Assembly: GCA_902728285.1 (NCBI GenBank)
Contig: CACVBU010000600.1
Location: 2,121,101 to 2,185,100, forward strand
DNA from: Clytia hemisphaerica
Taxonomy: Eukaryota > Cnidaria > Hydrozoa > Leptothecata > Clytiidae
Direction: 5' to 3'
Length of the DNA stretch: 64,000 bases
The position numbers and the translations under genes were made by a program. Positions 7,101 through 47,209 of the stretch are shown one piece after another. The notes beneath the pieces are model-generated. The model searched no databases and was not told where the DNA came from. It saw only the letters and a program-made list of their open reading frames with translations. Numbering within the stretch: position 1 is the first letter of the stretch; each line of letters begins with the position of its first letter.

Positions 7101-10100
7101 GATTTTAAGATTTAGACTAGATTTAGTAAAACCTAAGTACTAACCTAAGTACGTACTAAATTTTAATTTGAAATATAAGAACAAAGATTTATCAGAACAA
7201 ACCTGTTTCAGCAGCTATCCTTTGCGATCGTGCAACACTATCGCTTGTCCGGTTCATAATGTCCAAACCTTCTTGCATCATACCACGCTGCTGTGATTCC
7301 TAAAGTAAAATAAAGGAGGGGTTTCAAAAAGAAATTGTTTCATTAAAAATCCCTTGAAAAAGTCTGTCGTGCTATATAAAAAGATCCATTTTGAGTTAAA
7401 TAATAGAGGTTTTTAACTTGACAGACAAAATCCACCAAAAATTCTAACGAGAGGGAAGATATAGTTTGAGAGACTGAAAAAAATTCCCTACAGTGGAGTC
7501 TCCATAACTGAAAACCCGCAACCCGCACGGGGAACGCAGATTTTGTATGATGATGTTTGAATTAAGGAAATTTCGAGTCGTGGATTAAGGTTTATAAGGC
7601 ATTCTTAGCTGAAGGGCAGAGAACATATTTTCGAATAGTCAAGGACACAGTCATTCGAGTTACAGAGGCGTTAATACTGTATTTCAATCATAGCATGGCG
7701 TTCTAAATCTAGAAGGAATCATAGAAGGTTTCAGTTGACCCCGCATGTCTTATACTTTGACAACAAGTGAGAAGTTTCAGCAAAAGAAAGATAGGTACTC
7801 AAATATTCGACTTACAAAATTAGAGGTAGCTGAAGTGCCACCATAGCCAAGAAGATCATCTCTACTACCGCTGCTGCTTGACTGGACTGATGTTGATTTA
7901 GCCGTGATCTAGAATTATATGAAAATATTGGAAAGCGATGGTATCATGCAAAAGTTTCTAATGTAATTTGAGGCTTTCTATGAACAGTAACTGACAGTAA
8001 GGGCCGAAATATTTTGGATATTAAAAACCTTCCTCTTCTGATTAATTGGGCTAACTTTTGGCCAACAGATCAAATTTTCCAGGAAGGCTATGCCTGGGAA
8101 ACAGATGTTTAAAAAAAGGACCTCGCTGGATGCTTTCGCAGAGATGACGTATTTTTTCCAGCCTGAGAGACTTGTTATGCTTTAAGGCCTGTTTCCATCG
8201 ATCGCGCGAGCGTGCACGCTAGGGCAAAATTTCCTAAAATAGCCTATTGACGTCACGAATTAAATTTTCTTGTACACAAAAAGTGTACGCTCTTGTGGTC
8301 TTTTCTACGCTGAAAATTTTCAACTTTTTTGAGCGTACAGGAGCGCACATCTCAATTGATAATTTTTCAACCAATCAAGAAAGAGAAAACTGCTGAGTAA
8401 ACAAAAAAATGTAAAGATACAGATTGTGTATGTTTTTGATGGAAATCAAACATTGATTGCGCGGAGTGTGCGGCCAAATCTATTTTAATAATTTTGGCCT
8501 AGCGTGCACGCTCGCGCGATCGATGAAAACAGGCCTTTAGGCATACAATCTTTCGCGAGCAGAAACTTTCGCAAATTTCGTGAATTTTGGCCTTTTTCGC
8601 GAAAATAAATGTCTTTGAAAATTCTTAACAGGGCAATTCGCGAAAGTTTATGCTCGCGAAAATTCTCAAAAAAATTGGAAATCTTTAAAACCTCGAAATC
8701 ATAATACATAAACATCAAATTTTCAGCATATTATGATCTTTTAATGCAATTTTTTAAAGTCAAAGAGCAACCGTCTTTAGTGGATTTAAGGGATATTTTT
8801 CACTTTTAAGGCAATTTTCATTCGAAAATTATCATTTTTATCCAACGATTCGCGAAAGTTTATGCTCACGAAAAATGTTTTTCCCTCAAATTCGCGAAAG
8901 TAAATGTCGCAAATTTCGCGATTTTTCGCAAAAGTTTGTACGCCTAAAGTAGTTTTTAAAATCAATCGAGGCAATATCTTTGCACTATTTTACTATTTTT
9001 ATCCTTTCCATGCTTAGAAAACAAGAAATTTTGGAAAATACCGGGTGACCCACGAAAAAGCTCAGACGTTTCCCGACGTCTTTAGGCCGAACAAATGTCC
9101 CAAAGTGCTTGGAGTTTTGGTATTTAGAAAGTAGATATCTTAACTTAAAATTCGAGCTACACGCTTTTTTTTTTATAAGAATGGTGTTTTTTCATTTCAT
9201 CATGTATATTCTTAACTTGTTGGTGAAAATCATCCAAAAATATTCTTACGGCATTCTTAGGTTAAGATCGAAATTGGCAATCTACAGGTTAAAATGCATT
9301 AAAAATGGCATTCTTAAGTTCAGTTACTAAATTCCATGATGGTGATATCTTACCATATTCTTAATTTTTTGGCCATTTTCATCATGGACATTCTTATAAA
9401 TTGTATTCTTATAAAAAAAAAGCGTGTATCACTTTTTAAATTTGACCAACTTGTTCTCTGCTTATGAGCTTTTAAAGTCAAAATTCACTTTACGGAAAGT
9501 GTAAAAAACACGTAAAAAAGGGGTATCAAATTGGGTATTTTTAGACGTTTTTGATATACAGTTTTTGAAAAAAATCTTAGTCTAGTCTTGTTTTAAACAA
9601 AAATTACTTTCAAATGTGTTTTTATTAATTATTAATGTCATAAAACTCGTTAAATAAGTCAATTTGTAAGTGATTTTCTAATTGATTGCATGAATTTAAT
9701 ACCTCTTTTTTACGTGTTTTTTACACTTTTCGAAAAGTGAATTTTGACTTTAAAAGCTCATAAGTAGAAACAAGTTGGTCAAATTTAAAAAGTGATGGCT
9801 CAAATTTTAAGTTAGGATATCTACTTTCTAAATATCAAAACTCCAAGCACTTTGGGACATTTGTTCGGCCTCAAGACGTCGGGAAACGTCTGAACTTTTT
9901 CGTGGGTCACCCGGTACTGTTAAAAACTAATCCTACTTGAATGTTTGAAATTTTCCTAATTCTGCTGTATTAGCCTCCTTTTTATTTAACCCCCCGCTTA
10001 TTAAGTTTTGAGATTTTTTCCAACCTCTCCTCTCCCGCTTATTCGAAAGTAACCATGATAAAAATTTGGTCTCCCTTTTTTAAACAATTAAAGGTACTTT

Positions 10101-11254: not shown

Positions 11255-11568
11255 AATGCCTGAAATAGTTTATCGGTTTTCTATTGATTTCATTGCATTT
11301 TCACTGAAAATGAAATTTTAGTTATCATTTTATTTGCAGTTCATATGAGAAAGCAGTCAAGGTAAAGGCTGCCTGCGTACAGCCCTAGGGTATGTTTTTC
11401 AAGATAACAAAAGTGCACTGTCAAAATGAGCAAGTGAGCTCTAAGGGTGTAAATAAATGAGAAAATATATATTTCTATGCAATAAAAATAATGTTTTTGT
11501 GTGAAAAATTAAGAAACGTAACAAAAAAAAACAACAAGAATCTGCAAAAACAGCAATTTCATTTTGGG

Positions 11569-12041
11569 TTTTAGCCTCGTTTAGGCGAAAAACTCGTCCC
11601 CAGGCCCCAAAAATCAAAATTTTGAAAAAATGAAAAAAATACCCCCAGGGAATTGCCTAAGGATCAAGTGTGCAAAATTTCAGCCAAATCGGACCATTTT
11701 TTAAGTCTCCAGCCTGCCCCAAAGTTTTAGCCTCGTTTTGGTGAAAAACTCGTACCCAGGCCCCAAAAATCAAAATTTTGAAAAAATGAAAAAAACATCC
11801 CCAGGGATTTGCCCAAGGATCAAGTGTGCAAAATTTCAGCCAAATCGGACCATTTTTGAAGTCTCCAGCCTGCCCCAAAGTTTTAGCCTCGTTTTGGTGA
11901 AAAACTCGTACCCAGGCCCCAAAAATCAAAATTTTGAAAAAATGAAAAAAACATCCCCAGGGATTTGCCCAAGGATCAAGTGTGCAAAATTTCAACCCGA
12001 TAGGACCATTTTTGAAGTCTCCAGCCTGCCCCAAAGTTTTG
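11569..12041. repeat. 157-bp tandem repeat, three copies
   Basis: Three direct copies begin at TTTTAGCCTCGTTTT near 11569, 11724 and 11881. Each contains CCCCAAAAATCAAAATTTTG and ends with CTCCAGCCTGCCCCAAAG. The open frames of 133 and 156 codons here arise because the unit lacks stops, and they resemble no protein family. Confidence 0.85.
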
Positions 12042-21472: not shown

Positions 21473-21625
21473 TGAAAAGCACATGTCAAAATCATATATT
21501 GACGCTGTGCCGACGAATCGAGATTCCATTCATCGCGCAATCAACGAAGACAAAAGTAACCATGACGACCATCATAAAGTCTGTCTTATTATTTCGATTC
21601 AATTAAAAGTGACAGTTCGTACTAA
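21473..21625 (+). pseudogene. Fragment of the cysteine-rich gene found at 35.7-36.2 kb
   Basis: The segment around GACGCTGTGCCGACGAATCG closely matches the minus-strand frame at 35685-36194 and continues into its 3' flank (GTCTGTCTTATTATTTCG). About 90 bp present in the other copy are missing here, removing the end of the frame. It is a truncated, internally deleted duplicate. Confidence 0.65.
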
Positions 21626-22057
21626 TTTTCTCCTTTGTGTTACGAGTGATTAATCGTTAATTGCACGACAAAACATACGATTCCGAGGTAATCGTCAGTA
21701 AATAATCATTAGTAAATCATAGTTTTTTTGTAAACATTCGAAAACCTCCTTTTTTTCTTTTGTTTAAAAAGAAAACATTGCAGTGTAATTTTTCTTTGTT
21801 TTCAATTAAAAGAAGCTATTGTAACGTAACATTTCTTTGTTCTTTTTTATATTGAAGAAAAAAAATGTCTTTGTTTTTTATTATATAGTAAAAAAAAATC
21901 TCTGACACAGGACTTGGGAGAGAAAAGAATAAGGGGACAAAAGTGTCCCCCCGCCGAAGAGTGCAAAAAGTGGTAATAGTGCAATTAACGATTAATCGCA
22001 CTCCTCTAAACCAATCAGATTCGAGTAATTTTGCACGGCTGACGATTACGATAGAAA

Positions 22058-22165: not shown

Positions 22166-23389
22166 AATTCTGAGACAGAAAGCCGCTTCAGATACCCATC
22201 TAAGACGAAAGAGCTTTTAACAAACTTTTAACATTTTGAAAAAGGAAACTGGAAAAGAGATAAGGATACATACAAAGCATTGAGGACACTTTTGGAAAGT
22301 CTCGGCGTGTTGGTAACAAAACAAAGCGTGTGTATTTTGAGACAATGCTGTGTTGATGAGGTTAGCAAAGTTATGACAACACTAGGTCGTGACCTTCTTA
22401 TGCAGCTTTTAAATGGAAGAGAAACAGGTGCCTTCAGTGGATAAAATTTTGTGTGGATTGATAAATTTGAAACAGATAAATGTGACATGAATCTTTGGGA
22501 TTAATTTTTCTGAAAAGTAGTCTTTGCAAAAATTTTGAAATATTGGTCAAACCCCCTTGGAAAATGAAAGAAATTGGTTAATTAATCTCCATACAGACTT
22601 TCCAGGTAACTTTTTAAGAAGGCTGAATTGCGAAATTTTTTCCACGCAAAAATGAAACCACATGAGGTTACCAGAGGTCAGGAATCATGGAGTTGTGTTT
22701 TGACTTGATTTCAGGCCAAAAACCATACCTTTCATTAACCCAATAAATACTGGAACAAAATCATTCTTGAAATGTCAAAATAGCATCATAGTAGGCAAGG
22801 TTTATCTCAAAATATGCTTGGTCATATGTACAGTATTATCGTTTTTCGCGAAAGAGGTTTTCTACTAAGACCTAGGAAACTTTTTAGAGCTCAAAAATTG
22901 ATTTATAAGGCAAAATCCCTTGACGAAATTTAAAAATCATCAAAATCTGAAACCAGTTACTTTAATGAGATAAATTTTCGTGACGATTAAATTTCGCAGA
23001 TTTTGCGGATTTTGGTGTCATCCGCGAAATTAAAGCCCATGGAAATTTTTAAGGTCTAATCCGCGAAATCTTTTGAGCAAAACTCAAGTGATCTCAAATA
23101 ACTACTTTTAGAATGTCAACTTTTATCAAATAAGCGCTAATTATGCGTATTTCAACATCTAGCATGTACAATTTGGCAGTATAAAGTGCAAGTGCAAAAT
23201 CATAAATTTTGTCTCATGATGCCATCCGCGAAATTAAGTCCCTTTCTCCAGATAGGTCGAGAAATCTCAACCTACTATTTATCGAGCTATGTTTTGCAAA
23301 TTTGATCCTTAAAAAGCTTGTAAACGCTCGATGTGTTTCGGAACTCACATCGTGAGCTCACTTGTCTGCATGAATAACGATGATTCTAT

Positions 23390-23605
23390 GGCCCCCTTGG
23401 TGGATCCATCCATTTTGCTCAAATGAGCAATCTCCCTTGGTGGATCCATCCATTTTGCTCAAATGAGCAATCTCCCTCGGTGGAACCATCAATATTTTGT
23501 TCGGATGTCTGCATGAATAACGATGATTCTATGGTCCCCTTGGTGGATCCATCCATTTTGCTCAAATAAGCAATCTCCCTTGGTGGAACCATCAATATTT
23601 TGTTC
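23390..23605. repeat. Tandem CCTTGGTGGATCCATCCATT minisatellite
   Basis: Modules of CCTTGGTGGATCCATCCATT, TTGCTCAAATGAGCAATCTC and GGTGGAACCATCAATATTTTG recur four to five times. The last module ends about 25 bp before the acceptor of the first visible RSL1D1 exon, so it lies in an intron. Confidence 0.75.
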
Positions 23606-23630
23606 AAACCACTTTCACTTTCGTTTTCAG

Positions 23631-26600
23631 GTCATCAGTTTGACGAAGTTACGTAAAGAGTACAAAACGTACACATTAAAACGACAGTTGATCTCTTCAT
23701 ATAATATCTTCTTATGTGAAGAAAAGATTTACCATCTGGTCTGTAAATCTCTCGGAAAAGAATGCTACAAACACAAGAAGTATGATGTCTACTTTTCCCT
23801 TTTCAATGTTTTCTATAGAGCGTACAAATTTCTTTCAGGATTTGTTCCTGGGTCTTCCATGGCACAAAGCATTGTGTTTATTTTCAAAGTGGTAGATCCA
23901 AGCTAGCGGTTTTCATAGAAAAGGCTTATACACGCAGCCGAGGGAGGCTCCCCCGAGCGGGTAGGGGTGCTGAGGTAAAGCAGGCTACGAGTGTACGTGC
24001 AAGCTGTAAGGACACCTTTTTAGACCTTTGTTTCGTTCGACGAGCGAGTGTATAAAATATTCTTATTAGAAAGCCAAATCAGATAGACCAACGTGCGGGA
24101 TGTTTCTGAAGGGAAGTGAGTTGGTCTAATGTAATTTTTCGAATTATCAAGTGCAATTTTATTCATCGAAGAATATTTTATTCATTGAAACATCTGATAA
24201 CTGTTCATCAAATAATAAATAATTAATAAACAAATGAAGAAAGTATGCGCGCTGGCGCTGTGACCAACTCACTTCAGTCCAGAAACATCCCGCACGTTGG
24301 TCTATCTGATCTGGCTTTCTGAATATTGACATTAAAAAACAGCCATACTCTACAGTAGCATTCATTTCTTTTTGGAATGACCAAAGTTGTCTTCTTTTTT
24401 TCTTGGACAGGGAGCCTGAACCAGTTATGTAGTCATTCATTTTTGGAATGACCAAAATTGTCTTCTTTTTTTCTTGGACAGGGAGCCTGTACAAGTTATG
24501 TAGTCATTTCTTTTTGGAATGACCAAAATTGTCTTCTTTTTTCTTGAACAGGGAGCCTGTACCAGTTATGTAGTCATTTCTTTTTGGAATGACCAAAATT
24601 GTCTTCTTTTTTTCTTGGACAGGGAGCCTGTACCAGTCATGTAGTCATTCATTTTTGGAATGACCAAAATTGTCTTCTTTTTTTCTTGGACAGGGAGCCT
24701 GTACCAGTTATGTAGTCATTTCTTTTTGGAATGACCAAAATTGTCTTCTTTTTTTCTTGAACAGGGAGCCTGCACCAGTTATGTAGTCATTTCTTTTTGG
24801 AATGACCAAAATTGTCTTCTTTTTTTCTTGGACAGGGAGCCTGTACCGGTTATGTAGTCATTCATTTTTGGAATGACCAAAATTGTCTTCTTTTTTTCTT
24901 GGACAGGGAGCCTGTACCAGTTATGTAGTCATTTCTTTTTGGAATGACCAAAATTGTCTTCTTTTTTCTTGAACAGGGAGCCTGTACCAGTTATGTAGTC
25001 ATTTCTTTTTGGAATGACCAAAATTGTCTTCTTTTTTTCTTGAACAGGGAGCCTGTACCAGTTATGTAGTCATTTCATTTTGGAATGACCAAAATTGTCT
25101 TCTTTTTTTCTTGGACAGGGAGCCTGTACCAGTTATGTAGTCATTTCTTTTTGGAATGACCAAAATTGTCTTCTTTTTTCTTGAAAAGGGAGCCTGTACC
25201 AGTTATGTAGTCATTTCTTTTTGGAATGACCAAAATTGTCTTCTTTTTTCTTGGACAGGGAGCCTGTACCAGTTATGTAGTCATTTCTTTTTGGAATGAC
25301 CAAAATTGTCTTCTTTTTTTCTTGGACAGGGAGCCTGTACCAGTTACGTTGTCATTTCTTTTTGGAATGACCAAAATTGTCTTCTTTTTTTCTTGGACAG
25401 GGAGCCTGTACCAGTTATGTAGTCATTTCTTTTTGGAATGACCAAAATTGTCTTCTTTTTTTCTTGAACAGGGAGCCTGTACCAGTTATGTAGTCATTTC
25501 TTTTTGGAATGACCAAAATTGTCTTCTTTTTTCTTGGACAGGGAGCCTGTACCAGTTATGTAGTCATTTCTTTTTGGAATGACCAAAATTGTCTTCTTTT
25601 TTTCTTGGACAGGGAGCCTGTACCAGTTACGTTGTCATTTCATTTTGGAATGACCAAAATTGTCTTCTTTTTTTCTTAGACAGGGAGCCTGTACCAGTTA
25701 TGTAGTCATTTCTTTTTGGAATGACCAAAATTGTCTTCTTTTTTTCTTGGACAGGGAGCCTGTACCAGTTATGTAGTCATTTCTTTTTGGAATGACCAAA
25801 ATTGTCTTCTTTTTTTCTTGAACAGGGAGCCTGTACCAGTTATGTAGTCATTTCTTTTTGGAATGACCAAAATTGTCTTCTTTTTTTCTTGGACAGCGAG
25901 GCTGTACCAGTTATGTAGTCATTTCTTTTTGGAATGACCAAAATTGTCTTCTTTTTTTCTTGGACAGGGAGCCTGTACCAGTTATGTAGTCATTTCTTTT
26001 TGGAATGACCAAAATTGTCTTCTTTTTTCTTGAACAGGGAGCCTGTACCAGTTATGTAGTCATTTCTTTTTGGAATGACCAAAGAGTTGTCTTCTTTTTC
26101 TTGGACAGGGAGCCTGTACCAGTTACGTTGTCATTTCATTTTGGAATGACCAAAATTGCCTTCTTTTTTTCTTGGACAGGGAGCCTGTACCAGTTATGTA
26201 GTCATTTCTTTTTGGAATGACCAAAATTGTCTTCTTTTTTCTTGAACAGGGAGCCTGTACCAGTTATGTAGTCATTTCTTTTTGGAATGACCAAAATTGT
26301 CTTCTTTTTTTCTTGGACAGGGAGCCTGTACCAGTTACGTTGTCATTTCATTTTGGAATGACCAAAATTGCCTTCTTTTTTTCTTGAACAGGGAGCCTGT
26401 ACCAGTTATGTAGTCATTTCTTTTTGGAATGACCAAAATTGTCTTCTTTTTTCTTGAACAGGGAGCCTGTACCAGTCAGGACGGTAAACAAAGATCTGAA
26501 GAAGGAGATCGAGAAATGTCTTTCGAGCACCATGCTTAGAGTTGGACATGGACCAAGCAGGTACGTTGTAATGACACATTTTTAACGTTACTCTTGAAAT

Positions 26601-29461
26601 AATAATACCTCGTTGAAAAGATCATATCCGAAAATAAACTTTTGGATTGGTGGATAATTCAAGTCAGTGGTATATACGGGGTGTCCCGAAAAAAAGTATC
26701 GAGTCGTACCACTTCTATAGAAAGAAAGTTATCGTGTCTGTTTCACTAAATTTGCAATGTTTATCAAAGTTTCTCTTTGTGTCAAATTAATCTTTTATGA
26801 ATAACTTTTATAAAAAACAATTCTCAATAAATTTAAACGTCATGAAAATTGTAAAGAAAGTTAATTAATGGAGTCTGCTAAATCGCGTGCCACGCGTGCC
26901 TTCGTGCCTTGGCGTGCCTTCGTGCCTTGGCGTGCCAGCGTGCCAACGTGCCTTGGCGTGCCATCCAAATTTGGCGTGCCAACGTGCCTGCGTGCCTTCG
27001 TGCATTGGCGTGCCAGCGTGCCCACGTGCTTTGGCGTGCCAACGTGCCTTGGCGTGCCATCCAAATTTGGCGTTCTATTAAAATTTCGGCGTGCCATCCG
27101 AATTTTTGCGTGCCATCCGAATCTCGGCGTGCTTGTGCTATCCGAATTTTTACCGAAATTTGGGTAAAACTTTGGGGAGAAGATGACATAACTTGGACCC
27201 CCCCCATTATGGACCCCATTGTGGACCCCACTATGGACCCCCTCAAAATTAGCGGGGAAGCATTTTCAAGGTTATTTTATGTAATAACACTTAAATTATG
27301 TAAATAAAATGGCATTATCGCAAAATATGATGTGTATACACCAATTTACAACAAGATGTTTTCTCATGCTCAGTAGGATGCTGGCGGTGCAAATGGATAT
27401 AGATTGTCATGCAATGAAAACATTAAATGCTCCAAGAGAGCTGTTTTAGAGATATGAAAATAGTAGTACTTTTATTATTATTTTCATTTTTATAAGAACA
27501 TTTACATAAATTTAAAAGTTTTGAAGGAGATACACGTGTTTCTTCCACGCAAAAGGCAGTAGTCTACATGTCATTTTCTTGACAAAGTGACACTTTTTGA
27601 CAAAATTATTGACATGGCAATTATTTGGGATACCTGCAAGCTTTATTACACCAAATATTTCAATTGTACCGAATGAGATGCCTTTGATTTATATAGATAA
27701 ATATTGGGGTAAAGTAATTTTCAGAAGCCTAACAATTAATGTTTAAGGGCAAAATATAAACTCTGGAAATTTAAAAAAGTACGCCAAAATTTGGATGGCA
27801 CGCCGGAATAAGGATGGCACGCCGGAATAAGGATGGCACGCCAAAATTTGGACGGCGCGCCGGATTTTGGATGGCACGTTGGCACGCCGAAGCACGAAGG
27901 CACGCATGGCACGCTGGCACGTTGGCACGCTTAAAAACCGATGGCACGCGTGGCACGCGATTTAGCAGACTCTGATTAATGACTGTTGTAAAAACAATTA
28001 TTGTGGCAATAAAATTCAAATTTCTTACATTTTGTTAAACACACGCAACAACCTTCTACTCAGAATCATGTTCGAACTCGATACTTTTTTTCGGGACACC
28101 CTGTAGTAGACTACCCGTGCACAACAGATAGTGTGTAGTGATTATATAATCGCTTTCGCCTTTTCACACGCGTGATTTTTTTGCAAATTACCACGCGTGT
28201 GATGTGCACGTGAATCATAAACTTCACAATCACGAAATTTTAACACGCTTCAACACGCGTGTGATTTGGACAAGCTGGAGTTTTTACAAGCTCTTATTTC
28301 ATTTGGTTGGTCGTTAAGATGTAATAAAAGAATCTTATTACTTTTTCTAAAGAACGCGTCATCTCTATCACTTTAAATGACCAATTAGTGAAGTATCTTG
28401 TGAAAACTCCAGCTCACCCCTTGTGATTTGGTTTTTCTTTTGGTGTAAAAGATCTGAGAAGTGTGATCTGGTGTGACCACGTGTTATCATAGAAAGTGAC
28501 GTCATTGGCTACCATGGCAACCAATATAAAAGTTTGAAAGTTTGGAAAAAATTTACACCAATCGAAAGACCACGAAAAACTAAAATGGTGATAATAATGA
28601 CGTCAATTTTAAAAAGTGCTTGAAATTTGAGGCCTGTTTTTTGCGGCACAACAGTCTTCACTGATAACTGTCAATACTTTATCAGAATCTTTTTTTTAGC
28701 ATGTTTTATGATCTGAGTATACAATTCAAAAGTTTACTTTTAATTACCTCAAGCGGGGAACTAATTTTTGCTTTTTAAACAATCTTTAATATTTTTGTTT
28801 TCGTTTTTGTTTCAGTTCCATTTTGGTGGGTCAATTGAATGAGCACAAGGAAAAACAAATGGTTGAAAATTTGTTGCATGCCATGCGAATCGTCGGTCAG
28901 AAGGTCCCAGGCAAGTGGAACAACATCAAATCTATGTATCTCAAAACATCGACTTCAGTTGCTCTTCCTTTGTACCAAGCGTCACCCGTTGCAACCCACG
29001 ATCTTAGTGACGTCAAAGTCGACGTCGAAGAGAAGCAACGCAAGCGTAAACGTAAAGCGACGCCGTCCATCAAAAATACCAACCTCGATGAAGTTAAGAG
29101 CGATGATGAAGGACAAAATGAGGACCAGAATGATAAAACGGAAGACGTTGTATTGGACGGTGAGAAGGAAAAAGAAGTCACTACATTGGCAAATGAAGAC
29201 ATCGAAGAAACTAATCCTGCTGTCGAGGAACAGAAGACAGTTGTTGCCAAAAACGAAAAACATCTGAGATCTTCCAAAGTCAAGAAAGCGAAAGTCGAAG
29301 AAGAAAAAGAAGTAGGAAAACTCGTCAAAAAGAGAAAGGTGAAGAAAGTTACTACACTATCAGAAGAAGAAGAAATCGAGAGTGTTCCGAAAACAAAAAA
29401 GACACCCAAGAAAACACTACCTGCCAAAAAGACTGGCCCAAGGAAAGTCAAATCTAAGTAG
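23631..29461 (+). CDS. RSL1D1: RSL1D1-like ribosomal L1 domain protein, last three exons
   Basis: Nucleolar protein of the RSL1D1/Utp30 family, which carries a ribosomal-L1-like fold and acts in ribosome biogenesis. Visible exons are 23631-23779, 26462-26560 and 28816-29461, joined by GT-AG introns with compatible phases (297 residues). Exon 1 starts VISLTKLRKEYK, like the family's IISLxxLKKEY block, and runs to the ECYKHKK strand. Exon 2 gives EPVPV...LKKEIEKC. Exon 3 gives ILVGQLNEHK...PGKWNNIKSMYLKTS and ALPLY, the C-terminal part of the L1 fold. About 150 residues of lysine/glutamate-rich tail follow, with acidic SDDE and basic KKRK patches, typical of nucleolar proteins. The N-terminal half was not found upstream in this window; those exons may be split, diverged or farther away. 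The intron after exon 1 holds the splice-acceptor array, and the last intron holds a large inverted-repeat element. Confidence 0.88.
24068..24320. mobile_element. MITE with about 60-bp inverted ends
   Basis: The left arm AGAAAGCCAAATCAGATAGA...GACCAACGTGCGGGATG is matched by its complement at 24262-24320, around an AT-rich centre. It lies in the RSL1D1 intron just upstream of the tandem array. Confidence 0.8.
24357..26461 (+). repeat. About 30 tandem copies of an RSL1D1 3' splice site
   Basis: A 70-72 bp unit is repeated about 30 times. Each copy has GGAATGACCAAAATTG, a pyrimidine tract (TCTTCTTTTTTTCTTG), the acceptor (G/A)ACAG, then GGAGCCTGTACCAGT and TATGTAGTCATTTC. The final copy is the real acceptor of the exon at 26462: that exon also starts GGAGCCTGTACCAGT but continues CAGGACGG. 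The unit therefore arose by duplication of the intron end plus the first 15 exon bases. In most copies the reading frame entered at a decoy acceptor meets TAG seven codons in. Some copies read GTTACGTTG and lack that stop. Confidence 0.95.
26675..28105. mobile_element. TA-flanked inverted-repeat element with GCGTGCC arms
   Basis: The outer ends are CGGGGTGTCCCGAAAAAAAG and its near complement before 28105, with TA on both sides, which resembles Tc1/mariner MITEs. The inner arms at about 26870-27135 and 27780-27975 are inverted minisatellites of CGTGCCTTGGCGTGCCAACG type, bounded by GAGTCTGCTAAATCGCGTG and its complement. It occupies the last RSL1D1 intron. The long frames here come from the minisatellite. 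Confidence 0.8.
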
Positions 29462-29572
29462 ACACTATATTAAGAATAGCAGTGGACGATATTTTTATTA
29501 TGTAGCCTGATATAGCATATGATCGTACTTTTTCAGCCTCAGACTTTCCTTCTAATACAATAAGAGAGCAAT

Positions 29573-29873
29573 CCATTGAGTTTCAAGCCCGAAGGGCTAG
29601 AGGCGAGACTCCTGGATGGGAAATGAAACCACTTATTTCCTATCCAGAACGCCCGCGCGTAGTTTTTACACAAACGCCGGATTGAAACTAAAATCCATCG
29701 TTAAATTTCAAAAATGTAGTCCTCCAAAACAAAGGAACCGCTAAATGCAATCCGTCGTCATGATTACGGAGCGTTCTATGCGCGTTTTGGATGGGAAATA
29801 AGAAGCTTCAATTTCTCTTGCCTTGGAAAGGTTAAAGTTTTGCCTCTAGCCCTTGGGGCTTGAAACTCAATGG
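29573..29873. mobile_element. MITE just downstream of RSL1D1
   Basis: The inverted ends CCATTGAGTTTCAAGCCC and its complement continue as GGGCTAGAGGC against GCCTCTAGCCC. It starts 112 bp after the RSL1D1 stop and may lie in the 3' UTR. The unit also has internal inverted GGATGGGAAAT blocks. Confidence 0.8.
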
Positions 29874-30424
29874 AGAAACCCTAAATTTGCAATTTTTCTA
29901 CAGTGTAATAATAGGCTTATTTCACTTTTTGTAGAAGATGAGATTTTATCAAAAATTTTATCATATTTATGGGATCTGTATTTTTTAAAAATGAAGAAGT
30001 AGTTCTATTGTCTCGTCATAGTAATATGGTTTGAATGTTTACTTTCTTGCTATACTGTTTATGGGTGTTCTCACACCCGAGGAGAGGGCACTCAATGTAA
30101 ACGAACGAACTTAAGCGCGGCCCTTTGTCAGGCTTCCCAAGGTGAAAATCCCAAAAAAGTCCAACATTTTAGAAAATCAGACTATTTTTTGCTTCGAAAT
30201 GGACAAATATCTTCAAAAAAATGCACCGTAAGGATAGACTTTTTGCTTAGATTTGGTTGAATATTCTCTACATCATAAAGGTCCGATTTTCATGGCCCAA
30301 TTTTTGGGTTTCGGTGAACATTACAAAGCTGCAATCTGATTGGCTGTTAGAAAACCAATAAAATTCTAACCCAAAGACCAATTAGGAATAATTCAGGATA
30401 GAAGTAATAGCTCTCAAGGCTTTA

Positions 30425-30975
30425 CACTCCTTTCCTTTCAGTTTTACGAGTGCCCCCACACACACACCCACACACCCTATACACAGACACCCCCACACAC
30501 AGTGTGTTCAGATCTCGTGCTCGCCGTGCTAAGCGTGCTCGTTGAAATAGTTAAAATTTTACACCCCTTTCCTTTCAGTTTTACGAGTGCCCCCACACAC
30601 ACACCCACATACCCTATACACAGACACCCTATACACAGACACCCCCACACACAGTGTGGTCAGATCTCGTGCTCGCCGTGCTAAGCGTGCTCGTTGAATT
30701 AATTAAAATTTTACACCCCTTTCCTTTCAGTTTTACAAGTGCCCCCACACACACACCCACATACCCTATAGACAGACACCCCCACACACAGTGTGTTCAG
30801 ATTTCGTGCTCGCCGTGCTAAGCGTGCTCGTTGAATTAATTAAAATTTTACACCCCTTTCCTTTCAGTTTTACGAGTGCCCCCACACACACACCCACATA
30901 CCCTATACACAGACACCCTATACACAGACACCCCCACACACAGTGTGTTCAGATCTCGTGCTTGCCTTACTAAGC
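30425..30975. repeat. About 145-bp minisatellite with CACACACC blocks, four copies
   Basis: Each unit has TTTCCTTTCAGTTTTACGAG, a CCCCCACACACACACCC block, CCCTATACACAGACACC and CGTGCTCGCCGTGCTAAGCG. Copies vary by an extra 14-bp CCTATACACAGACA block. A related minisatellite on the opposite strand lies at 36470-37830. The two 60-codon frames are repeats of each other and not genes. Confidence 0.85.
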
Positions 30976-30999
30976 GTGCTCGATTTTGAAAAGTCTACA

Positions 31000-33070
31000 A
31001 CATTTTGTCCGTGATTGTATGTATCTTATGATTGTAAAGGGCTACGTGCATCAAGTTTTGACCAGTGATAGATAATGGATATTTAAATTTGAGTTTTATC
31101 GTTTTGATCCAGTTAATTTTAATATATATTACTAGACGTCGTCGCAAACGCCGGTTAACGGTTTTGCTTGTACATCAAAAGCCTTTAAAATACTGTAATG
31201 TTGGTTAATTCCTGACATTGTTTTGGCTTAACATGCCGAATACAATAATAAAAATTATACTTCTAAACTTTCTACATTAGTCAAAAATTTGTGTCCGTAA
31301 GCCTCGATGATATGTCTTTTTAAGATAACGGAAGTCTGTGTTCAATGAAATGCCATAGTGTCCCTGTCAAAATTATCGAGGGTACCCGTCGTTGCAGACG
31401 TCCAAAGGTGTCTGAGGTGGTGGGAGGGTTGCTTCTAGGAAAGAAAAAGCCTTAGTTGTGAAGGAGAGGCTCGCGCTTTGCGATTGAGCACTGAAGGTTT
31501 GCCCGTTTGTTGGCTTAACATGCGGACAGATTAAGAGCGGCGCATATGCAATGCTACCAACATTGAAACCTTTTTAAATAATGTTAGACGAAGTTTAATC
31601 ATCAAACAACAATGTTGGATTTTGTTGCGTGTGTTGATATAAAATAGTTCGAAATCATACAAATCCGTCGTGACAGTCTTGAAACCGAATAGCGCGAGAC
31701 TTTTTGTATCGAAGGAGGGTAGGTTTTCCAGCCGCGGCGTTCAAATTTTAGAAACCTTAATATGTTATTGGGTTAGCGTTAAAAAATTTTTTCATAAACT
31801 CAATTAGTATAGAAGATTCTACGGACCATATAGACATTTTCAATTTCAGTTGAGCTAGAATCTGACGATGTTTTCTGTCCGAAAACTTTAGGGCAGACTC
31901 CAGGCTGGACACTTAAAAAATAGTTGTCAGATTTGGCTGAAATTTGGCACACTTTTTCATTGAGTCAATATCATGGGGTGCTTTTTTTCAATGCACGATG
32001 GAGTTCGATTATTCGATTGGTTCGACATGTTCGATTGATCGGGTCTGGCTTAATGTCATGTCTCTTTAATTGTAAGATTCCTATCATTTTATTGGTGCAT
32101 TTACTAACTACACATAAAAGAAATAAAAACCTTCGTAAATACTCTAACAAACACAAAAAACATGACAGAAATACAAACAACCAGCTGACAGCATGCTGAA
32201 AACTGCCATTTCTTTAAAAACGAGCGATGTTTAAAAATGCTTGGTTACGTCTACCTGGACTTGCGGACTGACAAAACGTTAGATTTTATCTTACCTTAGC
32301 GAGTGAGTCCATCTTTAGACTATTCTAGAATGGTATGTTCTAGAAGTTTCCAAAGCACTTTCGTTTTCTAATTTTTGTTCATCATGTTCCGCCACCGCCA
32401 CCATGAAAGCCTATCGTAATACTTTCGCTATGCGAAATTAATCTTGTTTTGATCCAGTCACCTGATTTACTTCTATTTTACAGGGCAGTATCTATTAGAG
32501 GATTTCGTTTTATGCTTGATAACAAAATTAATTTTTTTCTCTCTCTATTTCATTTAGACTAGTCGACAAGTTAACAAACAATTCCAATACTGTATCGCAG
32601 ACATACCTATGATGAAGGGAGTGAAAATCAAGCGTTTTTAAGTCATTTAGATTTATGAAGTACTCGAAAGACTAAAGGTCGTATAAGTGATTCAAAGGAA
32701 GCCAGATTTAACTGTATGAAACGTAAACAAACCAAAGACACGAACCTAGCAGAAAGAAAACTTAATTTGGCAAGTAATATCCATAGAGGAAGATGTATGG
32801 TACATAAGGTCATAAATTGGCTTTGGTAACAAAATGTTGAATGGAAAGGTTCCCCCCAATCTCAACAAAATCCAAGCGGAAATGTTTCAATTTCCCAATT
32901 TCTCTTTTTAACAAGGTACTTTACTAATATTATCTTTTGAGCCCCCTCAAACCCGCCGCTGATAGTAGTACCTCTTAAATAACTGAAACCTTTTCATTTG
33001 CATTTGCATTTGCGTTTTCCCGAGTTTTCCCCTTTTTACGCGATATCGTTAGGGGGGATGTTAGGAATAA
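31000..33070. other. Intergenic stretch, no gene seen
   Basis: No coherent coding exon or complete element was recognised. A TTCGATTGGTTCGACATGTTCGA patch at 32010 recalls the TCGATT-rich elements of 15-18 kb. Confidence 0.45.
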
Positions 33071-33075
33071 TTTTT

Positions 33076-33614
33076 TAAGCCCATTTGTCAAAAGTTGCCT
33101 TTAGGTATAAAAAGAAGAAAAAATCATGTAAAAATCCTGCGGCACTTTTTTCAAGGTTGCCACGGGTTGGGTGCCACTGCCACTCCGCCAGCAAAATCGA
33201 AATTTCAAAAATTTTCAAAACATAGTGAATTGACCCCTCATTTGAAAGGTATTTTCATGCTGATTAAGAAAGTCATGTTTGTAATGTAAAAACACTCTGA
33301 CAAGAAGTAACTTAAGAAGAACGGTCGAAAAATTGCGTTTTTAGCAAAATCCTCAAAATTTCGTCAACTTTGTGAAATTACTTTTTGTGACAGTGTTACT
33401 CAACCTCATCATATTGATCTTCTTAATCAGCATGAAAATACCTTTCAAATGAGGGGTCACTTCACTATGTTTTGAAATTTTTTGAAATTTCGATTTTGCT
33501 GGCGAAGTGGCGGTGGCACCCTGCCCGTGGCAACCTTGAAAAAAGAGCCACCATGTTTTAACATGATTTTTTCTTCTTTTTATACCCAAAGGCATCTTTT
33601 GACAAATGGGCTAA
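33076..33614. mobile_element. Fold-back element with about 200-bp arms
   Basis: The left arm (33076 to about 33270) and right arm (about 33425-33614) are inverted copies around a loop of about 150 bp. The ends read TTAAGCCCATTTGTCAAAAG and its complement, and the arms share GACCCCTCATTTGAAAGG. The frames on the two strands, which both begin MPLGIKRRKN, are the same arm read twice and are not genes. Confidence 0.85.
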
Positions 33615-33882
33615 AGGGCTACATACACTACACAATATATTGCCCGGCAATATATTGGCAATATATTGACGATATATTGCTGAGTGCCAGCAATATATTG
33701 ATAAGGTGTCCGCAATATATTGCCAGCTCGATTTGCAATATTCCAACAATAAAGGGGGATTGTTTACAGAAAGAAAATTCCTTTTTATAATAGAGTACCT
33801 GTTGTTTACTTCGTACATTACGGTCCGAAAACGATATTGTTGAATATTGTTCGTCAATATATTGTGTAGTCTAAGTAGCCCT
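33615..33882. mobile_element. Harbinger-like MITE built of CAATATATTG palindromes
   Basis: The ends AGGGCTACATACACTAC and GTGTAGTCTAAGTAGCCCT form inverted repeats flanked by TAA (33612-33614 and 33883-33885), the 3-bp target of PIF/Harbinger elements. Six perfect CAATATATTG decamers and several variants lie inside. It directly abuts the fold-back element. Confidence 0.75.
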
Positions 33883-35014
33883 TAAGAGTTTATGTCATTT
33901 CTGCAAAATAACATCTCCCCCTAATATCGTGTGAGTTTGCAGACTCACGAAATTGTGAAGATCCCTGTGATTGATTTTAGGCTGATACGTGAAGTAAAAT
34001 CTGCACGAAATATTTGAAACACTACATGTTTTTTTTTTAGAAGCAAGTGTCTGCCCCTACATCAGGCTCGCATTATGCTAGCATTCTATTGTTCTCAAAC
34101 AATAGAACCATTGTTTAAGTACCAAAAACTGAGCCTGCATATGCTTATAAACGTTATGCTTATAAAAGAAAAAACATGTAATTCGTGAAAATAAATCCAG
34201 AAAAATTATATCAATTCATTTTGGCTCGCGAAAATTAACCCGATCAAAGTATACAATTTGCTGCGGACAGTTGTAGGTTTGTTCAGATCAGGTTAAGTTT
34301 TAAGTTGATAACTCACAATGGTTGGGCAAAATTTTTCATCTTTGTACAGTGGCAGTGAATCAGTCATAATTCCTTACATTTAGTGATTTATGTGTATGTT
34401 CTCTTTAGTGATTTTTGTTCTTTTGGTTGACTTCAACACTTTATGACCACCAACAATCTGTTATCTGCTATTTGTAACGAAAGTCATGGTATAACTTATG
34501 ATCTTGCAGTTGCTACATTGGTGTAAGGTCAGAAGGTTGCCAATTAATAGTTGACATTGAATGAAACTTTGTTGAGGTTGGGACGTACTGTTATCAAAGT
34601 GACACAGATTTCGAGAATTGAAACCAAAATATGATACCTTCTTTCTATGGAAACACACCAACCAAATTTTCCAGACTTTAGATAATAAGCAGGCTATAGC
34701 CTAGCTAGCTTCAACTAGCTACAAGTTTAAAACACATCACAGTCATTTTTCTCTGTTTGTTCAGGTTTGTTTGTAGTTTTTTTTTCGCAAGTTTTGGATG
34801 ATTTTGTTGTGATACTAGTGCGCACGCGCGTCTGTCAGAGGAAAACCCATTGTATTCCCGCCAAAGTTATAGAACTATTATCGGGACTTACAGTGAGGTT
34901 CAAGAAGTTCGATACTGTACCTACCCACAAATTTAAACCTGCGAAGTTTGAGAAAATTGAAAAAAAGCTAAGCAAAGAATGCTATTTCCTATAAAAAACA
35001 GTGAAAAATTACTT

Positions 35015-35300
35015 ACAGTTTTTGTGCGACCTTTCTTCTTCCTGCAGTCGTTGGCCATGCACCTAATTTGGTTTTTTCCGGTATCTTTTATGGCAGCAAC
35101 CTTCACGTGAACATAATTCATTTCTGCCGTAGTGCTGGTGAAAGCTTTCACTGCGTAGCTCTTTAGCAACGGCAGGATATTTAAAGTCAGACTTGTTTAG
35201 AAGAGACTGCATTTCAACGATATCACTTTGTTTTTTCAGGTCTGGAGTAAATTTTGTGATATCACAGAGCTGAAATTCCGTCACTGAATACATTGGCTGC
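35015..35300 (-). pseudogene. Possible exon with CMANDCRKKK, unclear frame
   Basis: On the minus strand two overlapping frames are open. One ends with CMANDCRKKKGRTKT directly before a strong donor, GTAAGTAAT (35014 downward). The other starts MQPMYSVTEF and contains CSREGCC. It may belong with the cysteine-rich frame at 35685-36237, but no joining scheme could be proven. No family recognised. Confidence 0.3.
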
Positions 35301-35684
35301 ACACTGGGGTGCTTCGAATGTTTGCATTCAAAGCTAACTTTTGATACCCTGAGTATCAGAGGTTAAGTTTTCAAAGAAAATAGTAACCTCTGAAGACAAA
35401 TAATAGAAATCTTATCGCGCATGTGTCAATCTAATCACTGTAGAAAAAAATCAAAGATGAAGAGCAAATATTACCATATTAATGTCTAGCAGACTGTATC
35501 AGTATGCAGTTTACTATTTACGAATTCCCCAGAAACCTCCAAGTGTAGTTGAAATGAGTTTATTTCGAAAGAAATCTTTTACATGATCCCCAAATGTATA
35601 ACAGTAATTACTAAACTTTTAATTATGGAAATGTCACTTTAATTGAATCGAAATAATAGACAGACTTTATGTTATGATTCTCTA

Positions 35685-36237
35685 TCACTGACTCTTTTTA
35701 CAAAGCATTGATGACTTTTTGTAAGTTGTGTTTTCAACGACGGGAATAAAAATACCGACTATGACGCTCATCCAAGATCTTGGATGGTCGTCATGGTTAC
35801 TTTTGTCTTCGCTGATTGCGCGATGAATAGAATCTCGATTCGTCGGCACAGCGTAAATATATGATTTTGAGCTGTGCTTTTCACAGTAAACTTTTGATGC
35901 TTCAGAAGCGGACCTCAAATCGCGACAGTCATTGTTGTAGCAAACTAAATCGGAATTTGTTGCGAACAAGAACTTCCTGTCTCCGTTATTGTTCATTTTA
36001 ATAGATTTTAGACACCCTCTGTCATCGTTGTAAACAACAACGGAGACTGGAAGAACTTTTTTATCGTCCAATTTCAGGTTGTTACGATTGTCACTGTCGC
36101 AAACAAAAGACCCACCGAGTTCTCTTCCGCAGTCGCAAACTTTCGGCTTTTTTCCGATTGTGGTATCCCTGCCCACAACTCTGACAGGATCCATAGCCCC
36201 TCTTGCTACCAGTCTTTTGAATATAATTCGATGCCAT
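35685..36237 (-). pseudogene. Cysteine-rich protein gene, frameshifted
   Basis: A minus-strand frame from 36194 encodes 169 residues with cysteine pairs (CDCGRELGGSFVC, LVCYNNDC, YCEKH), suggesting zinc binding. A better start lies upstream at 36237 in another frame. It begins MASNYIQK, follows a TTTCAG, and contains GSCQSCGQGYHNRKK, which looks like the missing first half of the same C-x2-C...C-x-C module. The two frames meet at a run of six A (minus strand, 36148-36153), so a single-base shift there separates them. It is either a pseudogene or a sequencing slip in a homopolymer. A truncated duplicate lies at 21473-21625. The family was not recognised; a transposon-borne gene is possible. 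Confidence 0.5.
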
Positions 36238-36469
36238 GTTCAGCTGAAACTACCCAACGCGACCTCTAGTTAAAATTACAACTTCTAAGTTACTTCAACT
36301 TCAAGAATTCAATGACCAGAACCAATTCTGCCCGGTCTGGGATTTGTGAACGTTTTCCTTTCTGACTGCTTTGCCTTACCAGTTGCCGGACCGCCCAAGG
36401 GTTTCCTTCGTCTGGTCTTGGAAATTGAAAACAAAAGGCCCACGTTTTTTTGTTTCGAAATTCACGGAC

Positions 36470-37830
36470 ACGCTGAGCACGGCAAGCACAGACTTTGAGG
36501 GTATATGACTAAACATCGTTTGATGAGCACGCTGAGCACGGCAAACACGGGATATGAAGGCACTGTGTGTTTGGGGGGGGGGGTTGTATGTGCCAAGTGT
36601 GTGTGAAGGGTGTATATGAGTAGGGTATAAAGGGTGTATATGAGTAGGGTGTAAAGTAAAGGTAGGGTGTAAGAATTTTCTTCGACATTTCAGTCACGCT
36701 GAGCACGGCAAGCACGGACTTCAAGGGGTATATGACTAAACATATTGTGTCGGACACGCTGAGCATGGCAAGCACGGACTGCGAGGGTGTATTACTAAAC
36801 ATCGTTTGATGAGCACGCTTAGTACGGCAAACACCCGATATGAAGACACTGTGTGTGGGGGGGGGGTGTATATGAGTAGGGTGTAAAGGGTGTGTATGAG
36901 TAGGGTGTAAAGTAAAGGTAGGGTGTAAGAATTTTCTTCGACAATTCAGACACGCTGCAATAAGGGTCATAATATATTGGCACTTTTGGCTAATTTACAA
37001 TTTTTCGAAAATTGAAGTTCGAGCGAGAATGTCAATTTTTAGGCCTTCAACTTGATTTCATCAAGTATTTCGATCTGGGAGGGATTTATGGGTTTCTAGG
37101 CTATATTTCAAGCCCTACTAGACCATTTTTGAACTTTTGGATCCTCAGACCCTAAGGTCCTAAGTCTTAAGTCTAGCGTTAAAACTCAGAGTTAAAACTC
37201 TACCCTTCGAACCTACTTTAGAGCACTTACAAATCGATTGTGGTTTCAAAACACCCCGGTGAATTTCCCTTTTGTGCCAAATATTTTGTCCCTGATTGTG
37301 AGCACGGCAAGCACGGACTTCAAGGGTATATGACTAAACATATTGTGTCGGACACGCTGAGCACGGCAAGCACGGACTGCGAGGGTGTATTACTAAACAT
37401 CGTTTGATGAGCACGCTGAGCACGGCAAACACGGGATATGAAGACACTGTGTGTGTGGGGGGTGTATGTGCCAAGTGTGTGTGAAGGGTGTATATGAGTA
37501 GGGTGTAAAGTAAAGGTAGGGTGTAAGAATTTTCTTCGACAATTCAGACACGCTGAGCACGGAAAGCACGGACTTCAAGGGTATATGACTAAACATATTG
37601 TGTCGGACACGCTGAGCACGACAAGCACGGACTGCGAGGGTGTATTACTAAACATCGTTTGATGAGCACGCTGAGCACTGCAAACACGGGATATGAAGAC
37701 ACTGTGTGTGGGGGGGGGGGTGTATGTGCCAAGTGTGTGTGAAGGGTGTATATGAGTAGGGTATAAAGGGTGTATATGAGTAGGGTGTAAAGTAAAGGTA
37801 TGGTGTAAGAATTTTCCCTGTACAGCGTGC
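36470..37830. repeat. Compound minisatellite, GCTGAGCACGGCAAGCACGG modules
   Basis: Modules GCTGAGCACGGCAAGCACGG, GGGTATATGACTAAACAT, GTGTGTGGGGGGG and GGGTGTAAAGTAAAGGTAGG recur in about six blocks. A unique stretch lies at 36960-37290. Read on the minus strand it is the same type of repeat as 30425-30975. The 67-153 codon frames come from the repeat. Confidence 0.85.
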
Positions 37831-37959
37831 CTCTAAATCAAAAGAATCTTTTTTATGTCTTTTGTAGTAGTATTTCATTTGTCGTTTTGCCAGATAATTT
37901 AAAGGTTGCTCAAACTAATGATACCCTTTGGATAGGAGTTATGTCCAGTACTATGACAT

Positions 37960-38230
37960 ATTACAGCTGGCAGCCAGCGGCAGTATCCCACACAAGTTAT
38001 CTCCATAATGTGATCTCAGACTTAGTTTTAAAACGCAATTTTATAAATGGTTATGTTAATATAACGTTAATAACGAAGTTGAAAGTCGTTCTCGGTAAAA
38101 TTCTCGGAAAAATGACAAATTCTCGATAAACACTCACAAAGATGAATTATGGCAGCACACCATCCCACCTATTATCTCTATAATATGATCTCAGACTTAG
38201 TTTTAAAAACAAAATTATATCAATAAACAC
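37960..38230. repeat. Diverged duplicate ATGATCTCAGACTTAGTTTT
   Basis: A segment around 37985-38050 and another at 38160-38225 share TATCTCxATAATxTGATCTC and AGACTTAGTTTTAAAA. They are diverged direct copies. The 100-codon frame at 37827 overlaps the first and has no recognisable domain. Confidence 0.5.
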
Positions 38231-38609
38231 CTCCTTAAGACAACTTACAGATGGAAACTCCGTGAAAAAACGACCGAAATATAACGCACGTTTCTGATCA
38301 GAATCCCAGCGCGCTATCCGTTGAGCCAATCTGGCATATCAAATCACAAAATTTGGAAATACTTATAGAATGACAAAAAAGACGGGGGTAATGTTATTAT
38401 AATATGGGCAAAATTGCCCCTTTTTTAACCTGACTGAAATTCGAGCCGTTACTAGCAACCCTGCGGGGCCCAAGGCGCCGAGTATGCACCCGGCACAGTG
38501 ACAAGCCGTTACTAGCAACCATTACCTAAGCAATTCCATACAACAAAACCCCCGGAAGATTTAAAATGTCGGAATGATCACTATACAAGAGTTTTTTCCG
38601 TTTTGCTCG

Positions 38610-41600
38610 TGCAGCGAGCAGCAAATTTCATGAAAAAAAGATCGAAATATAACACACGTGGCCTGGCTATTTTGGCACGTGGTGCTATGGGGTATATAGG
38701 CATATAGTGCTATGGGGTATATAGGTATATAGGTATATGTACCCACGAAATCCGTGCTAACGGCAGATTTCGTCCAACGGTTTTGCTCGTGCAGCCAGCA
38801 GCAAATTTCGTGAAAAAAAGAACGAATTATAAAACACGTGGCCTGGCTATTTTGGCACGTGGTGCTATGGGGTATATAGGTATATAGCTATATGTACCCC
38901 ACGAAATCCGTGCCAACGGCAGACTTCGTCCAACGGTTTTGCTCGTGCAGCCAGCAGCAAATTTCGTGAAAAAAAGAACGAAATATAACACACGTGTCCT
39001 GGCTATTTTGGCACGTGGTGCTATGGGGTATATAGGTATATAGGTATATGTACCCACGAAATCCGTGCCAACGGCAGATTTCGTCCAACGGTTTTGCTCG
39101 TGCAGCCAGCAGCAAATTTCGTGAAAAAAAGAACGAATTATAACACACGTGGCCTGGCTATTTTGGCACGTGGTGCTATGGGGTATATAAGTATATAGGT
39201 ATATGTACCCCACGAAATCCGTGCCAACGGCAGACTTCGTCCAACGGTTTTGCTCGTGCAGCCAGCAGCAAATTTCGTGAAAAAAAGAACGAAATATAAC
39301 ACACGTGTCCTGGCTATTTTGGCACGAGGTGCTATGGGGTATATAGGTATATAGATATATGTACCCCACGAAATCCGTGCCAACGGCAGATTTCGTCCAA
39401 CGGTTTTGCTCGTGCAGCCAGCAGCAAATTTCGTGAAAAAAAAGAACGAAATATAACACACGTGGCCTGGCTATTTTGGCACGTGGTGCTATGGGGTATA
39501 TAGGTATATAGCTATATGTACCCCACGAAATCCGTGCCAACGGCAGACTTCGTCCAACGGTTTTGCTCGTGCAGCCAGCAGCAAATTTCGTGAAAAAAAG
39601 AATGAAATATAACAGACGTGTCCTGGCTATTTTGGCACGTGGTGCTATGGGGTATATAGGTATATAGGTATATGTACCCCACGAAATCCGTGCCAACGGC
39701 AGACTTCGTCCAACGGTTTTGCTCGTGCAGCCAGCAGCAAATTTCGTGAAAAAAGAACGAAATATAACAGACGTGTCCTGGCTATTTTGGCACGTGGTGC
39801 TATGGGGTATATAGGTATATAGGTATATGTACCCCACGAAATCCGTGCCAACGGCAGACTTCGTCCAACGGTTTTGCTCGTGCAGCCAGCAGCAAATTTC
39901 GTGAAAAAAAGAACGAATTATAACACACGTGGCCTGGCTATTTTGGCACGTGGTGCTATGGGGTATATAGGTATATAGGTATATGTACCCAACGAAATCT
40001 GTGCCAATGGCAGACTTCGTCCAACGGTTTTGCTCGTGCAGCCAGCAGCAAATTTCGTGAAAAAAAGAACGAAATATAACACACATGTCCTGGCTATTTT
40101 GGCACGAGGTGCTATGGGGTATATAGGTATATAGCTATATGTACCCCACGAAATCCGTGCCAACGGCAGATTTCGTCCAACAGTTTTGCTCGTGCAGCCA
40201 GCAGCAAATTTCGTGAAAAAAAAGAACGAAATATAACACACCTGTCCTGGCTATTTTAGCACGTGGTGCTATGGGGTATATAGGTATATAGGTATATGTA
40301 CCCCACGAAATCCGTGCCAACGGCAGACTTCGTCCACGGTTTTGCTCGTGCAGCCAGCAGCAAATTTCGTGGGAAAAAAAGAACGAAATATAACACACGT
40401 GTCCTGGCTATTTTGGCACGTGGTGCTATGGGGTATATAGGTATATGTACCCCACGAAATCCGTGCCAACGGCAGACTTCGTCCAACGGTTTTGCTCGTG
40501 CAGCCAGCAGCAAATTTCGTGAAAAAAAGAACGAAATATAACACACCTGTCCTGGCTATTTTAGCACGTGGTGCTATGGGGTATATAGGTATATAGGTAT
40601 ATGTACCCCACGAAATCCGTGCCAACGGCAGACTTCGTCCAACGGTTTTGCTCGTGCAGCCAGCAGCAAATTTCGTGAAAAAAAGAACGAAATATAACAC
40701 ACGTGTCCTGGCTATTTTGGCACGTGGTGCTATGGGTATATAGGTATATAGGTATATGTACCCCACGAAATCCGTGCCAACGGCAGACTTCGTCCAACGG
40801 TTTTGCTCGTGCAGCCAGCAGCAAATTTCGTGAAAAAAAGAACGAATTATAACACACGTGGCCTGGCTATTTTGGCACGTGGTGCTATGGGGTATATAGG
40901 TATATAGCTATATGTACCCCACGAAATCCGTGCCAACGGCAGACTTCGTCCAACGGTTTGGCTCGTGCAGCCAGCAGCAAATTTCGTGAAAAAAAGAATG
41001 AAATATAACAGACGTGTCCTGGCTATTTTGGCACGTGGTGCTATGGGGTATATAGGTATATAGGTATATGTACCCCACGAAATCCGTGCCAACGGCAGAC
41101 TTCGTCCAACGGTTTTGCTCGTGCAGCCAGCAGCAAATTTCGTGAAAAAAGAACGAAATATAACACACGTGTCCTGGCTATTTTGGCACGTGGTGCTATG
41201 GGGTATATAGGTATATAGGTATATGTACCCAACGAAATCCGTGCCAACGGCAGACTTCGTCCAACGGTTTTGCTCGTGCAGCCAGCAGCAAATTTCGTGA
41301 AAAAAAAAGAACGAAATATAACACACGTGTCCTGGCTATTTTAGCACGTGGTGCTATGGGGTATATAGGTATATAGGTATATGTACCCCACGAAATCCGT
41401 GCCAACGGCAGACTTCGTCCAACGGTTTTGCTCGTGCAGCCAGCAGCAAATTTCGTGAAAAAAAGAACGAATTATAACACACGTGTCCTGGCTATTTTGG
41501 CACGTGGTGCTATGGGGTATATAGGTATATAGGTATATGTACCCCACGAAATCCGTGCCAACGGCAGACTTCGTCCAACGGTTTTGCTCGTGCAGCCAGC

Positions 41601-41925: not shown

Positions 41926-41929
41926 GAAA

Positions 41930-44195: not shown

Positions 44196-44198
44196 TAC

Positions 44199-45806: not shown

Positions 45807-45814
45807 TAAGTAAG

Positions 45815-47208: not shown

Positions 47209-47209
47209 G

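Follow-up and report, generated by a model that had tools for sequence, protein, structure and literature searches.

The locus raises the question of what a gene, and the cell that splices it, can make of an exon whose start has been preceded, within the intron, by dozens of near-identical copies of its own 3' splice site. The analyzed window (64,000 nucleotides, C419:2121101-2185100) contains three exons, A, B, and C (Table 1), that splice to one open frame ending at the normal stop. The translated exons, in a query with one surplus residue at the second exon junction, match the Pfam family Ribosomal_L1 (E 3.8e-30) and, at the top of 14 PDB sequences, the "Ribosomal L1 domain-containing protein 1" 8fkp_SL (E 6.6e-26), which we take to be the human protein. 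These matches agree with the preliminary description, made from the letters of the window, in assigning the gene to RSL1D1.

Table 1. Features of the RSL1D1 locus, in window coordinates unless a contig is given.
Feature	Position	Strand	Basis
Segment common to the window and C737:4388-13975, haplotype-specific gaps inside	22328..30307	+	blastn, colinear blocks
RSL1D1 exon A, 5' of array; donor GTATGA at 23780	23631..23779	+	open frame VISLTKLRKEYKTY..., RSL1D1 alignment
Inverted-repeat (foldback/MITE-like) element directly 5' of array, approximate ends	24064..24320	.	sequence reading, blastn
70/71-bp tandem array, 30 copies	24362..26476	+	TRF, anchor count
29 decoy acceptors (exonic parts starting at 24411, 24482, 24552 ... 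26392)	24411..26406	+	in-silico splicing, acceptor scores
RSL1D1 exon B (real), 99 nt, opening with the 15 exonic bases of copy 30; donor GTACGT at 26561	26462..26560	+	alignment, frame
RSL1D1 exon C, last coding, with stop codon	28816..29461	+	ORF, alignment, frame
Two N-terminal RSL1D1 exons	C737:3084-3238 and 3940-4051		in frame with remaining exons

The intron between exons A and B ends in a tandem array, for which TRF gives a period of 71, 29.9 copies, 95% matches, and a score of 3855. Anchoring on GGAATGACC yields 30 head-to-tail copies, with neighbouring acceptors spaced by 71 bp (21 cases) or 70 bp (8 cases). The roughly 30 tandem copies of a 3' splice site in an RSL1D1 intron, announced in the preliminary description, are borne out by both counts; so is its reading of the unit as a pyrimidine tract, the AG, and the first 15 coding bases, with the last copy as the true exon start at 26462, from which the frame is open. 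The span given there, 24357..26461, starts a few bases early, and the repeated sequence stops at 26476, within exon B (TRF, 24362-26476).

The unit runs from TGAC through the pyrimidine tract and the AG to the first 15 coding bases of the exon, and is made up of an intronic part of 48–49 bases that includes the AG, an exonic part of 15 bases, and a joint of 7. The TGAC, approximately 30 bases 5' of the exonic part, is a putative branch-point-like motif. The exonic part, GGAGCCTGTACCAGT, shows few changes among copies; its translation, EPVPV, is aligned with VPVSV of the RSL1D1 PDB sequence. The T run of the pyrimidine tract is mostly seven bases long (21 copies); 8 copies have six T and 1 copy has five. 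The intronic part ends in GGACAG in 18 copies and in GAACAG in 10, and two others deviate. Of the joints, 24 read TATGTAG and 4 read TACGTTG; copy 30 has CAGGACG, the true continuation of the exon, in this place.

The copies differ by about 2% from the consensus, with 41 substitutions over the 30 units of the window array. In the 30-copy fit, substitutions per site are lowest in the pyrimidine tract (0.004) and highest in the last six intronic bases (0.072), where a single G/A position accounts for 11 of the 13 changes; the 5' part has 0.014, the 15 exonic bases 0.013, and the joint 0.043. The tract, with its 2 substitutions, nevertheless holds all 10 deleted bases. The acceptor AG is intact in 30/30 copies, although 41 substitutions over 30 units predict only about one change of the AG. 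The decoy splice signals look neither clearly decayed nor clearly protected. Tandem turnover is suggested by the few distinct 64-mers (16 among 30 copies) together with a trimeric higher-order pattern, the mean variant match being 0.70 at lag 3 vs. 0.50–0.61 at the seven other lags between 1 and 8.

In-silico splicing joined exon A to every acceptor in turn, 30 in all, and the frame was read through to a stop. An early in-frame stop is met from 29/29 decoys, and the normal end is reached from copy 30 alone. The TAG seven codons on, previously expected for most decoys, is found for 25 of the 29; the remaining ones stop at codon 22 (copies 18 and 28) or codon 37 (copies 14 and 25). As these stops presumably descend for the most part from a single ancestral joint, the 29 would amount to approximately one event, not 29.

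The decoys strongly resemble the real site. The last window copy equals inner copies 3, 9, 24, and 27, and these four match the real acceptor exactly from −48 to +15 (48 intronic and 15 exonic bases). With an approximate human weight table, the acceptor score is 8.5 in 28/30 copies including the real one (27/29 decoys), 6.7 in copy 22, and 3.9 in copy 12; in copy 19 a further AG lies four bases 5' of the acceptor, at 25680 (CTTAGACAG), with the intron's top acceptor score of 11.7. The donor scores, equally approximate, are 3.7 for exon A at 23780 and 9.3 for exon B at 26561, while the scan of the window array yielded no good donor (at most 1.2), and micro-exons within the window units were rejected on that ground. 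Folding showed no clear signal for the hairpin TTTTGG-AATGA-CCAAAA (a 21-mer chosen by eye; z −2.24), for one unit (z −1.15) or two units (z −1.66), or for three acceptor contexts (z −0.65, 0.90, and 0.11), and hairpins as functional elements of the array were therefore rejected.

The array occurs on a second contig. In searches over the 417-Mb assembly (951 contigs), all matches to the unit, among the 101 listed, are on C419, which holds the window, and C737. Besides the common segment of Table 1, further colinear blocks of C737 are seen at window positions 44604-47966 and 50438-52081 (93–98% identity), with long haplotype-specific stretches in between. Block 44604-46005 is full-length on C419 and C737 only, among 40 scored of 4447 candidates, with pieces occurring elsewhere; block 50438-51377/52081 could be a dispersed repeat. 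Given the colinear blocks and the restriction of block 44604-46005 to C419 and C737 among scored candidates, the two contigs are best read, on sequence comparison, as two haplotypes of one locus. The idea that C737 is a dispersed partial duplication and not an allele, suspected from the lone shared block 22328-30307, was dropped on the further colinear blocks. Structural divergence between the haplotypes is strong at window positions 30307-44604: these 14 kb have no colinear matches with the 33 kb of C737 13975-47062, and past C737 13975 there are also off-diagonal matches, 67–89% identical except for one of 93% over 196 bases (position 73623, outside the window).

The array-bearing intron measures 2,682 bp in the window vs. 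5,764 bp on C737. On C737, 72 anchors occur, one of them outside the array, which leaves 71 anchored copies, and the best fit gives 72 (19 + 53), counts made on noisy sequence; the alleles differ approximately 2.4-fold in copy number (30 vs. about 71). As C737 carries the same array at 71–72 copies, we take the array to be real and polymorphic in length. Window and C737 differ in the spelling of the last, functional acceptor. The first copy deviates in both haplotypes (AAAGTTG), and the C737 copy following an insertion deviates likewise. This insertion, of approximately 265 bp (about 7684-7950), splits the C737 array and starts with (TAA)n; by eye, C737:7684-7950 resembles a truncated copy of a retroelement that carries a microsatellite tail. 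Substitutions per kb are 19.7 and 18.2 in the two parts of the C737 array and 19.4 in the window array, whereas deletion events per kb are 31 and 44 vs. 4.3 in the window, i.e., seven to ten times more. Because deletions are far more frequent at an equal substitution rate, most odd unit lengths of C737 are probably unpolished long-read errors.

Two aspects were not foreseen in the preliminary description: the class of array is already known, and the window haplotype, as assembled, is without the N-terminal exons, so that the complete RSL1D1 coding sequence is absent at this locus. A human probe detected no N-terminal exons in the window or in 40 kb upstream on C419, and a motif search of the window recognized none. 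DNA searches of the assembly place them on C737 only (one search with a single candidate, which was scored; two others in which 40 candidates were scored, out of 1829 and 798). Dispersed-repeat matches end at C737:4387, directly adjoining the homology break at 4388, and the window haplotype is either truncated or else misjoined near 22328. With the N-terminal exons missing as assembled, production of RSL1D1 by the window haplotype is putative. Substitutions between the window and C737 amount to 0.7–1.6% in the three coding exons (99–643 aligned bases) vs. 1.5–5.6% in seven non-coding pieces; together with the open frames, this makes it probable that constraint acted on the exons of the window until recently.

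Arrays of this kind are known as mirages, on which Canestro and others reportedly published the founding paper in 2002. In the available portions of the sources, mirages are minisatellite-like duplications of intron–exon boundaries, described in amphioxus Adh3, BflGb6, and BflGb9 (PMC3087553) and in amphioxus TnC, and PGBD5 is likened to them (PMC3902484). Their tandem unit spans the boundary and repeats the splice site together with some of the exon, as does the RSL1D1 unit, copy 30 being the real junction. The units measure 10–72 bp in Adh3 and 150–160 bp in globins (PMC3087553), and the 70/71 bp found here are likewise of minisatellite size. Haplotypes differ in both systems: BflGb6 has 6 and 3 copies (PMC3087553), and the RSL1D1 array 30 (C419) vs. 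71–72 (C737). Amphioxus mirages are further described as homogenized in the inner copies, with edge copies left out, and as unstable in length in both soma and germline. The RSL1D1 array differs from them in its host, a hydrozoan cnidarian, its gene, and its combination of a 70/71-bp unit with 30 and about 71 copies and about 2% substitutions. Two other systems are related more weakly, again as far as the available text of the sources goes. In the potato RdRp gene, a single tandem duplication across an intron–exon boundary made a new spliced intron; it likewise comprises an intron end and exon start, with a putative branch site, pyrimidine tract, and acceptor (PMC4974935), whereas the RSL1D1 array has dozens of copies, and its window units are without a good donor. 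In human segmental duplications, variable internal tandem repeats change exon/intron structure and vary in copy number; they average four 30-bp units and, unlike the RSL1D1 array, are not defined there by a repeated acceptor (PMC2812944). We judge the RSL1D1 array to be a large mirage-type member in another phylum. Its phylum and gene appear to be new, as do array sizes of 30 and about 71 copies; within the literature searched, no such array was found in a cnidarian, which is weak evidence of novelty.

The explanation that we consider probable is that the array is a hypervariable mirage minisatellite, mostly passive, with the real acceptor mainly used. A segment of approximately 70 bp across the intron end and exon start of RSL1D1 would have been tandemly duplicated, and then expanded and homogenized, presumably through slippage in replication or unequal exchange, until the two haplotypes had 30 and about 71 copies. 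Splicing would settle mainly on the last copy, and occasional decoy use would yield early-stop mRNA destined for nonsense-mediated decay. Passivity is favoured by the signs of turnover, by decoy signals that are neither clearly decayed nor clearly protected, by the presumed non-independence of the stops, and by amphioxus mirages, which reportedly leave normal splicing intact; the real acceptor would be preferred, since only the last copy starts a 99-nt exon with a strong donor and the exon's own sequence. However, the four decoys identical to the real acceptor are nearer to the donor and transcribed first, so that some misuse is to be expected; the exons starting from the last decoys (169, 240, and 311 nt) are still of ordinary length; and the lowest substitution rate, that of the pyrimidine tract, could hint at constraint, although the numbers are small (2) and the 10 deleted bases are located there. 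Not exclusive of a passive mirage is a reading in which the window copy is a non-functional, 5'-truncated RSL1D1 allele, the array a hitch-hiking relict, and the C737 allele the working one. The N-terminal exons, seen on C737 only among scored candidates and neither in the window nor in the 40 kb upstream, point that way; the low coding divergence and open frames of the window do not, and a misjoin of C419 near 22328 would look alike, the repeat matches of C737 ending exactly at the break. We regard such a truncation as quite possible, if short of probable.

The remaining readings are less plausible. The decoys could be length-tunable poison acceptors, competing kinetically with the real site, with early-stop transcripts degraded and the array length setting the RSL1D1 dose. 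Such a role would fit the in-frame stop from every decoy, the approximate acceptor score shared with the real site by 27/29, and the copy-number difference between the alleles; against this, the stops would go back largely to one ancestral joint, the decoy signals are without clear excess conservation, and published mirages, in the available portions of the reports, do not disturb normal splicing (PMC3087553, PMC3902484), so that we consider regulation of this type unlikely. Distinctly more doubtful is a living dial and nursery, where copy number sets the RSL1D1 yield of the allele via poison acceptors, and micro-exons or new introns are born. Births of this kind would be possible, as a single-base change would give the units a usable donor: the loss of one T would convert CCA/GTTATG to CCA/GTATGT, with an approximate donor score of 4.1 vs. 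3.7 for the donor at 23780. The sequence CAGTATGT is read at four places in the C737 array and at none in the window array; these four sites may be sequencing errors. An assembly artefact, i.e., a single real copy inflated by misassembly, was named in the preliminary description as fatal to its claim. The deletion excess of C737 at similar substitution rates is a mark of unpolished long reads and lends it some substance, but such noise alters the spelling of copies, not the existence of the array, and the two contigs each have an array of their own, longer on C737 and different in variants and last copy; misassembly of this kind is very unlikely indeed and was rejected.

If the cell ignores 29 to about 70 near-identical acceptors, the choice of site cannot depend on the local acceptor sequence alone, and the allele pair would then be a natural experiment on exon definition vs. 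first-come kinetics. The passive mirage reading would extend mirage minisatellites from cephalochordates to a cnidarian, suggesting that the repetition of splice junctions is widespread, with a possible part in intron gain.

The host is most likely a hydrozoan, given the mitochondrial tryptophan tRNA between cox2 and atp6. A COX1 search of the assembly has a single match, on a contig of 14,551 bp, with the transcription order (TGA = tryptophan; names from translations) cox2, tRNA(tca), atp6, cox3, nad2, nad5, nad6, nad3, nad4L, nad1, nad4, cob, cox1; the tRNA with anticodon tca, labelled SeC by the program, is taken as tryptophan under the same code. Non-aplanulatan Hydroidolina are reported to have a tryptophan tRNA in this place, between cox2 and the atp genes (PMC4655093).

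Near the array, the inverted-repeat element is flipped between the haplotypes, window 24064-24242 matching C737:6206-6380 in reverse (blastn). A dispersed element at 21625-22049 has dozens of copies, mostly 91–99% identical (40 of 3144 candidates scored). Another tandem array, at 30421-30982, has a unit with the acceptor-like TTTCCTTTCAG and is not tied to an exon. A 156-bp tandem array (20.7 copies, 96% matches) occupies 38707-41932, and a second array of period 156, different in sequence, 11568-12040. Finally, a stop-to-stop open frame of 283 aa at 54236-55087, containing MGNSTSK..., may resemble HEPN-domain proteins of the DZIP3 type.
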